Notes under the pieces: generated by a model | Database searches by the model: none | Seen by the model: the letters and a program-made list of their open reading frames with translations, nothing else | Told to the model about the DNA's origin: nothing | Made by a program: the position numbers and the translations under genes | Shown here: one piece after another, positions 2,976-43,572 of the stretch | How the letters are laid out: every line of letters starts with the position of its first letter | Numbering within the stretch: the first letter of the stretch is position 1 | From: Mageeibacillus sp. | GTDB lineage: Bacteria; Bacillota; Clostridia; Saccharofermentanales; Saccharofermentanaceae | DNA length: 64,000 nucleotides | Direction of reading: 5' to 3' | Assembly (NCBI GenBank): GCA_022484595.1 | Contig: JAKVLB010000001.1 | Coordinates: 62,001-126,000, forward strand

Positions 2976-3009
2976 AGACAAATTCTCCTTTATAAAAAAT
3001 ATGTAAATT

Positions 3010-30358: not shown

Positions 30359-30634
30359 CCCCCTCGTCTCCTGAATAGAGACGAAGGGGTGTTCGCGGTA
30401 CCACTCTAATTCACCGCTCGCGCGGTGCACTCATTGATACAGGGCAAAAGCCCGATATCCGGGTTCCTGTAACGTGAAACCTTAGTACGTCCGGATCTAA
30501 TCGCTAATGCTTTCAACCCGAAGGCTCCGGGGCGAGTTCTCTTTATCGTTCATAACCGTCTCGCACCGACCGGCGGCTCTCTGTATATGCCTTCAAAAGA
30601 TAATATTCCTCATCATCGCCATGAATATTAAGTT
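30359..30634 (-). promoter_or_regulatory. T-box leader (tRNA-Leu specific) of leuA
   Basis: Minus strand features in order: stem I with AGAGAGCCGCCGG and the GGTGCGAG distal element; specifier CTC (Leu) at 30534-30536 followed by GCCCCGGAGCC; the T-box motif AGAGTGGTACCGCG (30394-30407); and the terminator CCCCTTCGTCTC/GAGACGAGGGG (about 30359-30390) followed by a weak U-rich run. This accounts for nearly all of the roughly 350 bases between murD and leuA. Binding of uncharged tRNA-Leu would favour antitermination. Confidence 0.95.
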
Positions 30635-40864: not shown

Positions 40865-42106
40865 TTAATTTCTGAAATATGAAGCGATCAGAATCAGCGT
40901 CAGACACGAGATAAATGCTACAGTAGTAATTGAAATAATATTCTGAAGCTTGTTATTTACATGCTTGCCCATTATATCCTTGCGATTTACAAGAATAATC
41001 ATAAATATCAGAATAACAGGTGACAAAACTCCCGCAAGCCTTTGTGTTATCAGAATCAGCTTCATAAGAGATATTCCGGGAATAAGAATCAGAGCGCTTG
41101 CGAAAGCTACCATAAATGTATAGATGCCAAAGAAAATAGGTGCTTCCTGCATTGTACAGTCAACACCGCTCTGCCATCCGAATGCCTCGCATACAGCATA
41201 TGAAGTCGACAGAGGTATTACTGATGCAGCCAGAACCGATGCACCGAACAATCCCGCGCCGAACAGAATAAATGCATAACGCCCGGCAAGAGGCTCAAGA
41301 GCCATAGCTGCCTGCTGTGCTGAATCAACGCTGATTCCGGCCTTATACAGAGTTGCGGCCGTACAGACTATGATAAAAAGCGATACGGCGTCGCCCCAGA
41401 ACGCACCCAGATAAACATCGAGTTTCTCGTACTTGTAGTCTTCAACACTCAGTCTCTTGTCGACAATTGATGATTGCAGATAGAACTGCATGTACGGTGT
41501 AATTGTCGTTCCGATAAGACCTATAAGCGACAAAATATAACCTTTATCCAGAGACATTGAAGGAGAAATAAGTGAACTGCCAACTTTGCTCCAGTCGGGT
41601 CTGGCAAGAAACGCTGAGATAATATAGCCGAAAAAGGCAAACGTAAACATGAGGAAAATCTTTTCGACCCGCTTATAAGAGCCCTTTGTGACAAGAAGCC
41701 AGATTATAATCGCGCATACAGGTACGGACACGTATTTGCTTACTCCGAACAATTCCATACTTGCGGCAATTCCTGCGAAATCACCGAGGACCACTCCGAA
41801 ATTCGCTATGAGCAGAATTACCATTGCAAAAAAAGTCCACTTGACTCCGAACGATTCGCGGATAAGGTCAGACAGACCTTTTCCGGTGACAACAGCCATC
41901 CTTGCATTCATCTCCTGTATTACGGCGAGACTCAGTGTAATTATAACCAGACTCCAGAGCATACTGTAACCATACGAAGCACCGACGGATGCATATGTCG
42001 CTATTCCGCCCGCGTCGTTGCCGGCGTTGACGGTAATTATACCCGGGCCGACGATTGATATCAGTTTCAGAAAATTCAGCCTGTTCTGGCGTTTGGTCTG
42101 CGTCAT
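40865..42106 (-). CDS. Nramp-related divalent metal transporter, probably NRMT (Mg2+) type
   Basis: Integral membrane transporter of 413 aa with about 11 hydrophobic segments and the Nramp fold. In the first helix the canonical metal motif DPGN is replaced by NAGNDAGGIATYAS, and in the sixth helix the usual MPH motif is replaced by TTITPYMQFYLQS. Loss of the TM6 Met is a feature of the NRMT branch, whose Clostridium acetobutylicum member transports Mg2+, rather than of Mn2+/Fe2+ MntH proteins. It overlaps the upstream PRC-MgtE_N-CBS gene by four bases, which also points to Mg2+. Substrate is inferred, not seen. Confidence 0.85.
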   Translation of the reverse strand: MTQTKRQNRLNFLKLISIVGPGIITVNAGNDAGGIATYASVGASYGYSMLWSLVIITLSLAVIQEMNARMAVVTGKGLSDLIRESFGVKWTFFAMVILLIANFGVVLGDFAGIAASMELFGVSKYVSVPVCAIIIWLLVTKGSYKRVEKIFLMFTFAFFGYIISAFLARPDWSKVGSSLISPSMSLDKGYILSLIGLIGTTITPYMQFYLQSSIVDKRLSVEDYKYEKLDVYLGAFWGDAVSLFIIVCTAATLYKAGISVDSAQQAAMALEPLAGRYAFILFGAGLFGASVLAASVIPLSTSYAVCEAFGWQSGVDCTMQEAPIFFGIYTFMVAFASALILIPGISLMKLILITQRLAGVLSPVILIFMIILVNRKDIMGKHVNNKLQNIISITTVAFISCLTLILIASYFRN

Positions 42107-43362
42107 GACTGAATCCTCCTTAGCCTTACATATTCATGTATAAGGTCATTGAGAAGAATAATTCCGACAAGAACGCCGTCGGTATCCTTTACCGGAACCA
42201 TCTGAAGATTATACTTCTGCATCAGGTCCATAACGACATCCAGATGATCTTCATCATTGACTGACAAAAGCTGATCCGACATCAGACTGCCGAGCAGTGC
42301 ACTTCCCTGAGAAGCAGCCAAATCCAAGAGTGTTACAAGACCGAGAAGATGTTCGTCTCTATCGGTAATATAGACATAATGTGACGTCTCTTCCTCAACA
42401 TCACCGTTCTTAAGCGCACTTACCGCTTCAGCAACAGTGGTCTCAGGTCTGAACGAAGAGAACTCCTTTGTCATAACAGAACCGACAGTGGCATCCTCAT
42501 ATTCCATAAGTTCCCTTATCTCATTTGACGCATCTGACTCCATCTGGTCAAGGAGCACTTCGGCACGCGTGTCATCAACATTCTCAAGAATATCAGCCGC
42601 TTCATCCGAAGGCATGATCTCAAGGAGGTCAGAAGCCCTTTCATCCGGCATTGTCTTAATGAGTGCCTGCTGCTTCTCTTCGTCCATTTCTTCAAGAACC
42701 TCTGCAGCCGTCTCATCATCGAGTCCGTGCATGAGCTGCATCTGACTTTCCCTGTCGAGCTTCTCTATTATGTCCGCAATATCAGCCGCGTGGAGCGTTG
42801 TAAGTTTATTCATTGAAGTCGAAAGCTGAAGGTCAAGCAGACCCGAAGAAATAGGCTGAACCGTATCCCAGCTGATCAGTTTGTTACGGAATTCCTTGCG
42901 CGACAAAGAGTTGATCCTTATTGCAACGTACTCAAGTCCCAAACGGCGAAGAAGACCGCGCAGACCGATATCAACTGCCACGACCTTCCATCTTCCGCCG
43001 GTCATGCCGAGTCTCACGTCGTTAACTCTCTCGACTTTCCGGCCGTGTACATCAACTATCTGTTTATCGAGAAAATTACGCGCGAGAAACAGACCGTTTC
43101 CCGGCGGTGGCATAACTCTTAAATGGTCCGAATTTATCATTACCTGATAGTGTTCATGACCATCGTGGCTTATCTCAAGATAATCTGCGGAAATATATGT
43201 CGTACTATGCCCGTTCTTAACCTCGATTGAAGCTATTACAGGGTTGTTGCCGCTCAAATCAAGAACCATATCATTAAGTCTGCCGAAAACGGTATCAGGC
43301 GTAATGATAATGTTCTTGCCGAGTATCTTACTGAAGAAAAAACTGGAAGATTTCTGCTGCAC
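42103..43362 (-). CDS. Soluble PRC-barrel / MgtE N-domain / CBS protein
   Basis: 419 aa without membrane helices. Order: PRC-barrel-like modules in the first ~170 residues (FGRLNDMVLDL, VDVHGRKVERVNDVRL); an MgtE N-terminal superhelical domain at about 185-290 (AADIADIIEKL, PDERASDLLEIMPSDEAADIL); and two CBS domains at about 300-410 (VGSVMTKEFSSF, LMQKYNLQMVPVKD). In MgtE these cytoplasmic domains bind Mg2+ and gate the pore; here the pore domain is absent and the protein is coupled to an Nramp-like transporter by an ATGA overlap. It is probably the cytosolic Mg2+ sensor or gate of that transporter. It starts with GTG; the GGAAGGAG ribosome site lies 7 nt upstream and can be hidden in a hairpin. 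Confidence 0.88.
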   Translation of the reverse strand: MQQKSSSFFFSKILGKNIIITPDTVFGRLNDMVLDLSGNNPVIASIEVKNGHSTTYISADYLEISHDGHEHYQVMINSDHLRVMPPPGNGLFLARNFLDKQIVDVHGRKVERVNDVRLGMTGGRWKVVAVDIGLRGLLRRLGLEYVAIRINSLSRKEFRNKLISWDTVQPISSGLLDLQLSTSMNKLTTLHAADIADIIEKLDRESQMQLMHGLDDETAAEVLEEMDEEKQQALIKTMPDERASDLLEIMPSDEAADILENVDDTRAEVLLDQMESDASNEIRELMEYEDATVGSVMTKEFSSFRPETTVAEAVSALKNGDVEEETSHYVYITDRDEHLLGLVTLLDLAASQGSALLGSLMSDQLLSVNDEDHLDVVMDLMQKYNLQMVPVKDTDGVLVGIILLNDLIHEYVRLRRIQS

Positions 43363-43369
43363 TTAAATT

Positions 43370-43435
43370 CTCCTTCCTGCGCGGAAAGAGGCAGCATCAG
43401 GCACTCAGATAACAGCCTGAATTATGTCCTTTCCG
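43370..43435 (-). promoter_or_regulatory. Candidate two-state RNA switch hiding the MgtE_N gene ribosome site
   Basis: On the minus strand CTCTTTCC (43383-43390) can pair with the ribosome site GGAAGGAG (43370-43377) over a 5-nt loop, 8 bp with one G-U. The same CTTTCCG (43382-43388) can instead pair perfectly with CGGAAAG (43429-43435), which lies inside the leader ORF. A TCAGGC/GCCTGA stem (43415-43420 with 43397-43402) nests inside the second fold and holds the leader stop codon in its loop. The two folds exclude each other. Pairing is seen; switching is inferred. Confidence 0.55.
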
Positions 43436-43488
43436 GAGCCTGTCAATTCATTTTGGCACATGTCCGTGTCGTCAGAATCAGCATCCAT
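43405..43488 (-). CDS. Asp-rich 27-residue leader peptide
   Basis: A short ORF with an excellent ribosome site, AAAGGAG (43498-43504) 9 nt before the ATG, and a TGA stop 43 bases before the MgtE_N gene. Its N-terminus is MDADSDDTDM: five Asp in the first nine residues. The rest contains GSGKD, whose codons carry the CGGAAAG element of the RNA switch. Acidic nascent chains destabilise ribosomes when Mg2+ is low, as known for E. coli MgtL, so the peptide may be the sensor. No homologue could be checked; it might instead be a small functional protein or an unused ORF. Confidence 0.5.
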   Translation of the reverse strand: MDADSDDTDMCQNELTGSGKDIIQAVI

Positions 43489-43543
43489 ATGAACAATCTC
43501 CTTTACAAATTATTACAAATTATTGGTTTGAAATTCAAAATGA

Positions 43544-43572
43544 ATTATAGCATTTTCCTTTGAACCGGTAAA
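43544..43572 (-). promoter_or_regulatory. Promoter of the leader-MgtE_N-Nramp operon
   Basis: Minus strand -35 TTTACC (43567-43572), 17-bp spacer, -10 TATAAT (43544-43549). A CCGGT/ACCGG inverted repeat overlaps and precedes the -35 (about 43565-43582) and could be an operator or the weak end of prfB. Transcription would start near 43537, about 175 bases before the first large gene. Confidence 0.6.

Follow-up and report, generated by a model that had tools for sequence, protein, structure and literature searches.

In enteric bacteria, the MgtL and mgtQ leaders are documented cases in which ribosomes drop off an acidic leader peptide and thereby control Mg2+ transport. In E. coli MgtL, acidic nascent chains are reported to cause ribosome dissociation at low Mg2+ (PMC11282234), and in Salmonella, mgtQ couples ribosome drop-off to masking of a ribosome-binding site (RBS) (PMC8092293); both systems have been tested experimentally. 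A different kind of Mg2+ control, the M-box, has been described before operons of MgtE-like and Nramp genes, and the available part of that report makes no mention of a leader ORF (PMC4072509). Among the matches listed in our literature searches (titles and the beginnings of abstracts, with few subscription journals covered), no acidic leader of the MgtL or mgtQ type appears for Clostridia or Firmicutes. We therefore regard the element described here as new with respect to its bacterial group and its targets; the drop-off mechanism itself is known.

The leader, its operon and the competing RNA segments

The window, a stretch of 64 kb, contains an operon for an MgtE_N protein and an Nramp-family transporter, preceded by a short ORF. 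The original prediction, made from the letters of the DNA, had described this ORF as a leader of 27 codons with a strong ribosome site and five Asp in its first nine residues, and the sequence agrees on each count; the MgtE_N/Nramp operon behind it was verified by Pfam. The features of the locus are as follows:

43544..43572, minus strand: sigma-70-like promoter, TTTACC, 17-nt spacer and TATAAT preceded by TG (10/12 matches)
43498..43504, minus strand: ribosome-binding site of the leader, AAAGGAG (from the sequence; SD energy -8.8 kcal/mol)
43488-43405, minus strand: leader ORF, 27 aa, MDADSDDTDMCQNELTGSGKDIIQAVI (ORF list, translation)
43429..43435, minus strand: segment C, CGGAAAG, codons 18-20 of the leader ORF, candidate anti-SD competitor (three-segment search, nascent folding)
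43382..43390, minus strand: segment A, CUCUUUCCG, anti-SD arm common to both potential helices (MFE fold, three-segment search, nascent folding)
43370..43377, minus strand: segment S, GGAAGGAG, RBS of the MgtE_N gene (sequence, three-segment search)
42103..43362, minus strand: PRC-barrel + MgtE_N + CBS protein, 419 aa, first gene of the operon (Pfam)
40865..42106, minus strand: Nramp-family transporter, NrmT-like, 413 aa (Pfam, PDB search)

The leader peptide begins MDADSDDTDMC, with Asp at residues 2, 4, 6, 7 and 9, and is wholly devoid of Pro; its ATG lies 9 nt downstream of AAAGGAG. The leader stop is separated by 42 nt from the GTG start of the MgtE_N gene (43362), and GGAAGGAG is located 7 nt upstream of this GTG. 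The end of the MgtE_N gene and the start of the Nramp gene share 4 nt. The Pfam MgtE membrane domain is absent from the 419-aa PRC/MgtE_N/CBS protein. The gene upstream of the leader, presumably prfB, encodes a peptide-release factor (Pfam domains PCRF and RF-1).

To the identity of the transporter, alignment and a PDB search both contribute. NDAGG is common to the window Nramp and EleNRMT, and PLST in the window corresponds to PLTT in EleNRMT; we take these to be the binding-site motifs of NrmT. EleNRMT (7qia) is also the best PDB match of the window protein (E 1.7e-112; next best, E 2.5e-29), and the 7QIA entry is tied to an Mg2+ transporter of the Nramp family (PMC8806188). By sequence similarity, the window Nramp is NrmT-like, closer to EleNRMT than to the Mn2+/Fe2+ Nramps, and the same similarity to EleNRMT points to Mg2+ as its probable substrate. 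A relative from A. capsulatum, with an MgtE-like gene and without a riboswitch, has been described as a likely manganese transporter (PMC4072509).

According to the original prediction, one arm of the intergenic RNA could pair either with the ribosome site of the MgtE_N gene or with a segment of the leader ORF. CUCUUUCC (43390-43383) pairs with GGAAGGAG (43377-43370) over 8 bp, one of them G-U, whereas CUUUCCG (43388-43382) can instead pair with CGGAAAG (43435-43429) inside the leader ORF. We searched for such trios with a three-segment procedure, which looks for an arm able to pair with the RBS as well as with a stretch of the leader further upstream, takes the weaker of the two helices as the score and assesses significance with 100 dinucleotide shuffles per locus. 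Run blindly, the search recovered in the window the very trio that had been proposed (p=0.01; 0/100 shuffles as good), which bears out both helices as potential pairings. This joint test was devised after the outcome of a first, duplex-energy test was known. In the latter, a single best anti-RBS arm was picked beforehand, which proved too blunt and selected the wrong arm for the window; z was below -1.5 in 23/93 loci for the RBS arm and in 30/87 loci for the leader arm.

Minimum-free-energy (MFE) folding of the window leader region, a check advised with the original prediction, yielded the RBS hairpin, with a total folding energy that is ordinary (z -0.73 and -1.04). In growing transcripts, the computed probability of the C:A helix was 0.81-0.94 before S was complete. 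Once S was transcribed, the A:S hairpin won, the best fold with C:A forced being ~7 kcal/mol worse, and RBS opening in the window was 0.11, equally closed, in all six truncations. Because A:S is favoured at equilibrium and the RBS stays closed in every truncation, the window switch, if real, would be kinetic, with an open state that the folding model predicts in nascent RNA only. Thus, of the two-state switch originally proposed, the trio of segments stands, and the switching between them has to be recast as a kinetic process. Finally, C found no better-than-chance partner in the early window leader, 137/200 shuffles pairing as well. With no segment to capture C in an untranslated leader, expression of the operon is expected to rise when the leader start codon is mutated or the leader otherwise goes untranslated.

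Acidic leaders in related loci

Within the window's genus, no other genome in the collection carries this operon. In the window's order, MgtE_N matches at E<=1e-40 were obtained in 2/188 genomes, namely that of the window and one from a different family, and Nramp matches at E<=1e-20 in 5/188, the other four all being outside the genus. Conservation was therefore examined in more distant genomes. Wider MgtE_N searches at E<=1e-35 matched 45/398 genomes in the phylum and 23/391 in the class (the window's own in both), and searches at E<=1e-45 matched 2/2 genomes in the family of G822, which carries the gene closest to that of the window, and 66/68 in the genus of G733. The resulting set comprised 137 PRC-MgtE_N-CBS loci, with the window and seven other named loci outside it. 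Eight weak matches confined to the MgtE_N/CBS part were dropped (G301, G412, G189, G335, G436, G311, G535 and G506), as were G895 and G980, the latter at a contig edge (82/83 rows of its search used). The sampling is uneven, 93/137 loci coming from one family, f14.

In each locus, one ORF of 8-60 aa was selected from the 450 nt before the gene by SD strength alone, and the leader signature was defined as M[DE] followed by Pro in positions 3-7 or by at least three acidic residues in positions 2-10. The signature was present in 107/137 loci (121/137 with any strong-SD ORF), L063 among the 107 being judged false. As controls, 0/685 shuffled regions (91 with a strong-SD ORF) and 1/143 regions preceding other long ORFs at these loci (13 with a strong-SD ORF) carried it. 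After M[QAG] variants and slightly weaker SD sequences were admitted and four false ORFs were taken out, the count was 116/137 loci, in 15/25 families, with 27/44 outside f14; among Nramp-linked loci, the leader was unrecognised in 16/54. The four rejected candidates (L062, L063, L078 and L106) are ORFs that lie in or upstream of M-boxes. Hence, the ORF does not lack conservation, acidic leaders standing before the same gene in 15/25 families. A chance origin of the acidic ORF and of the short complementary stretches in an AT-rich intergenic region would suit the unexceptional total folding energy; given the near absence of the signature from shuffled and natural controls and the significance of the window trio (p=0.01), we consider this extremely unlikely, and the conservation across families disfavours it further.

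Leaders of this kind were also found before other transporter genes. We searched with a DNA pattern that describes the start of the leader and ignores the downstream gene, with the reversed pattern as a control. In 68 genomes of one genus, it matched 41 times, at 39 sites distributed over 36 genomes (reversed control, 4); MgtE_N genes follow 33 of these sites, full-length mgtE genes follow 4 (L193, L215, L216, L219), and 2 are chance (L197, L220). In 291 genomes of the class, there were 65 matches in 53 genomes (reversed control, ~26 by eye), of which 6 were at known MgtE_N loci and 36 were examined: 15 are located before mgtE and 3 before corA, 17 were judged to be chance, and 1 (L254) is cut off at a contig end. 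Matches resembling M[DE]PGPMPTL..SAPA were the commonest chance hits and were rejected; at a guess, they may come from the opposite strand of some conserved gene. Thirteen mgtE calls were confirmed, seven by Pfam and six by NCBIfam TIGR00400 (L222, L224, L227, L246, L251, L258), and the three corA calls by Pfam (E<=1.4e-54); six mgtE calls are by sequence likeness only (L215, L223, L233, L249, L252, L253).

Furthermore, full-length mgtE genes of the window's genus, collected by homology search, are preceded by acidic leaders such as MDSDSHYRSS, MEADSHYRSS, MDAGDSCDKR and MTRSDSDNPR, in 17/18 loci as judged by eye (L024 has little upstream sequence). By the blind signature rule, leaders were detected in 9/29 mgtE loci at the level of the order versus 2/145 shuffles. 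The RBS switch is weaker in these groups, being significant for 6/22 pattern-found mgtE/corA leaders and 1/13 order-level mgtE leaders. In three mgtE loci of the window's genus (L021, L022 and L030), the leader shares one short region with an anti-SD arm and a terminator-like hairpin that carries a T run, which suggests joint control of transcription and translation; the output stage of the mgtE leaders may therefore differ.

The composition of the leaders bears on what a ribosome would respond to. Residue 2 is Glu in 66/116 leaders and Asp in 46/116, and Pro occupies position 5 in 99/116; residues 3-9 vary widely. Codon 2 is GAG in 55, GAT in 27, GAC in 18 and GAA in 6 of the 110 distinct leaders, a number that includes the window and the four later-removed false ORFs. 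Since Glu and Asp interchange at residue 2 and all four codons are in use, it is acidity, and not one codon, that is conserved. Among the nearest relatives, G822 has the leader MDGDPANKC (gene 59% identical to that of the window), and the others have MDDYDTDKC, MDGDSTDKC and MDDPDTDSH (genes 47-50% identical); aligned with MDADSDDTDMC, they have in common M and Asp/Glu2 and, mostly, T-D/E as well.

Two other readings of the leader retain the release of C and differ in what halts the ribosome. One is arrest on a specific peptide sequence (M-[DE]-x-G-P...), by which the ribosome would stall on some other Mg2+ or translation-stress cue, with the same switch and targets. The frequent Pro at position 5 and the recurring residue context suggest that more than charge is involved, and an effect of EF-P on mgtA control has been reported in Salmonella (PMC6460261); however, the window leader has no Pro, the acidic mgtE leaders of its genus lack it in residues 1-8 (by eye), and the variation at residues 3-9 is wide, so that we regard arrest as unlikely. 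Classical amino-acid attenuation, with scarce Asp- or Pro-tRNA stalling the leader ribosome, could draw on the five Asp codons in nine of the window and on the Pro of most relatives. Yet an attenuator of that kind combines the codons of one amino acid with a gene for its biosynthesis or transport, whereas here Glu and Asp are swapped at position 2 (66 vs 46 of 116) and the targets are three families of Mg2+ transporters, not biosynthesis genes, which makes attenuation highly improbable. Drop-off on an acidic nascent chain remains our preferred reading.

Several loci depart from the common arrangement. In 32/94 loci with at least 2 kb past the gene start, no Nramp relative was found behind the PRC-MgtE_N-CBS gene, and 30/32 of these belong to f14 (for example, L090 and L127); the leader is kept in 29/32, before a stand-alone MgtE_N protein without an obvious transporter partner. 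In relatives from Coriobacteriaceae (L032, L034-L038), another conserved short ORF, MKPRPHSR or MKPKPRPHSR, ends in KPRPHSR; it is basic and Pro-rich, is located some 100-170 nt upstream of the MgtE_N gene (partly read by eye) and perhaps represents a further kind of leader peptide. In a Chloroflexi MAG (L033), an acidic ORF that reads MIENSESSTLDSDSTSGDQRR... by eye lies upstream of the MgtE_N gene at 3001, with a terminator-like hairpin between the two, immediately ahead of the gene; this is possibly a distant member of the class that uses termination.

Pairing segments and M-boxes across the class

The three-segment test was applied to 111/116 leaders, those within 230 nt of the gene. In these cleaned loci (window excluded), the switch reached p<=0.05 in 81/111, with 30/111 above the threshold; it was significant in 20/27 loci outside f14 and in 32/38 Nramp-linked loci. 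Among the 82 significant loci, window included, C starts at a median of codon 19 (IQR 18-21), which would place it out of reach of a ribosome lost within the first ten codons, and the C/A/S trios are diverse, with 75 distinct among 82. This recurrent position also bears on translational coupling, in which a ribosome terminating on the leader would help to open the RBS hairpin, so that leader translation activates the gene. The presence of that hairpin and the mere 42 nt between leader stop and gene in the window are compatible with coupling, but the acidic start, the recurrent C near codons 18-21 and the competing pairing would all be left unexplained; we consider it quite improbable and retain drop-off as the explanation of the pairing.

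Covarying pairs, which the original prediction had called for in close relatives, were found in part. The pair-change counts, which carry no shuffled control, show both sides varying at 12/14 C:A pairs among the pairing sequences of a 24-locus group, where the outer pairs are often broken, and two-sided changes at 4/15 C:A pairs in a 9-locus group. In the 12 nearest Clostridium-like loci, no pair changed on both sides, the changes being one-sided only. For the RBS helix, two-sided changes were seen at 2/9, 2/14 and 0/6 pairs. Thus, competing pairs recur with other sequences and two-sided changes occur in two groups, but not in the 12 nearest loci. RBS opening was greater with C free than with C masked in 90/108 loci, a comparison that is partly circular, C having been picked for pairing.

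With respect to the M-box, its absence, asserted in the original prediction, was confirmed. No match to the covariance model (RF00380) above the gathering score was found in the window, where Rfam at that score returned RNase P, T-box and tRNA only, and with stricter filters, the M-box is absent from the window's genome too. The T-box leader lies at 30374-30625 on the minus strand (117 bits). The position of the promoter would set the mRNA start near 43537 and thus leave no room for a 169-nt M-box; the promoter scan is weak evidence, with 2 sites versus a mean of 1.3 in shuffles. M-boxes occur in 7/188 genomes of the order and in none of the window's genus.

In the class as a whole, the two elements are often found together. 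Among 61 scanned loci, M-box and leader coexist in 29; a further 16 have a leader but no M-box, 9 an M-box but no leader, and 7 have neither. The close relatives of the window's gene at L114-L122 have both in 9/9 cases, the window and G822 (L081) have a leader without an M-box, and an M-box is present in 8/20 scanned mgtE/corA loci. The view of the leader as a control of another type than the M-box fits the window, which has the leader alone, but the co-occurrence in 29/61 relatives indicates that the two are not simple alternatives. By its sequence, the window leader is a member of a class, M-[DE]-x-[G/D/V]-P or Asp-rich, which in the window's phylum is located before PRC-MgtE_N-CBS/NrmT, mgtE or corA genes and is often accompanied by an M-box.

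Proposed mechanism and comparison with known systems

We consider it likely, by analogy with the enteric leaders, that the element controls Mg2+ uptake in cis as a leader peptide switch and operates through ribosome drop-off on an acidic nascent chain. With ample Mg2+, ribosomes would translate through C, A would pair with S, and the MgtE_N-NrmT operon would be off. At low Mg2+, the acidic nascent chain would cause intrinsic ribosome destabilization, as in MgtL and mgtQ, and ribosomes would leave the mRNA by about codon ten. With its start at codon 18, C would then stay free and capture A as the RNA emerges, and with C:A formed, S would be open and the operon translated. The Mg2+ sensor would thus be the ribosome itself. 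What the sequence analysis provides is the anatomy, the conservation, the potential competing pairs and the apparent targeting of Mg2+ transporter families. The drop-off interpretation put forward originally is supported by conservation of the leader in 15/25 families and by the NrmT-like transporter downstream.

More broadly, it seems fairly probable that these are Mg2+-sensing leaders, widespread in the window's phylum, with the ribosome as sensor, serving at least three unrelated transporter families independently of MgtL and mgtQ, often stacked with an M-box as transcription and translation checks and replacing it where it is absent, as in the window's genus. If the class works alike, acidic nascent chains would be a more general bacterial gauge of Mg2+. 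Many M-box operons would then have a second, overlooked Mg2+ input, and reporter results on M-box leaders of Clostridia may need rereading. The class would also supply many natural variants from which to learn what kinds of acidic or Pro-containing start destabilise ribosomes beyond the enterics.

Compared with the M-box (ykoK) described before NrmT operons, the window has the same kind of operon, with an MgtE-like gene, and the same expected direction of control, off at high Mg2+ (PMC4072509). The M-box is reported as an Mg2+-binding RNA acting mostly on a terminator; the window has a leader instead. In M. tuberculosis, an M-box is combined with a conserved uORF, rv1805A, which lies downstream of the M-box, is controlled by it and is described as having an unclear role (PMC12810186), whereas the window uORF is apparently itself the sensor, with no need of an M-box.

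The closest likeness is to MgtL and mgtQ. In common with them, the window has a short strong-SD ORF directly before a putative Mg2+ transporter operon, acidic residues in the first ~10 codons that are kept among relatives, and, as potential pairings, mutually exclusive structures that overlap the ORF and would control the RBS. We do not claim membership by descent, the peptides being too short. E. coli MgtL, the leader of mgtA, is likewise acidic, with an early EPDP (Glu2 and Asp4), and precedes an Mg2+ transporter, but it acts via Rho-dependent termination (PMC11282234), whereas the apparent target in the window is the RBS. Salmonella mgtQ, a uORF between mgtC and mgtB, comes nearer: it is a short ORF with a strong SD that acts on translation, its acidic residues (Asp2, Glu5) are needed for mgtB expression, and alternative stem-loops overlap the ORF, one of them hiding the RBS of the transporter (PMC8092293). 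It differs in being 8 aa long rather than 27, in lying inside an operon and in serving another transporter family. Moreover, mgtQ uses four segments (1:2 + 3:4 vs 2:3), owing to which a start-codon mutant lowers mgtB expression (PMC8092293); for the three segments of the window, the opposite outcome is predicted.
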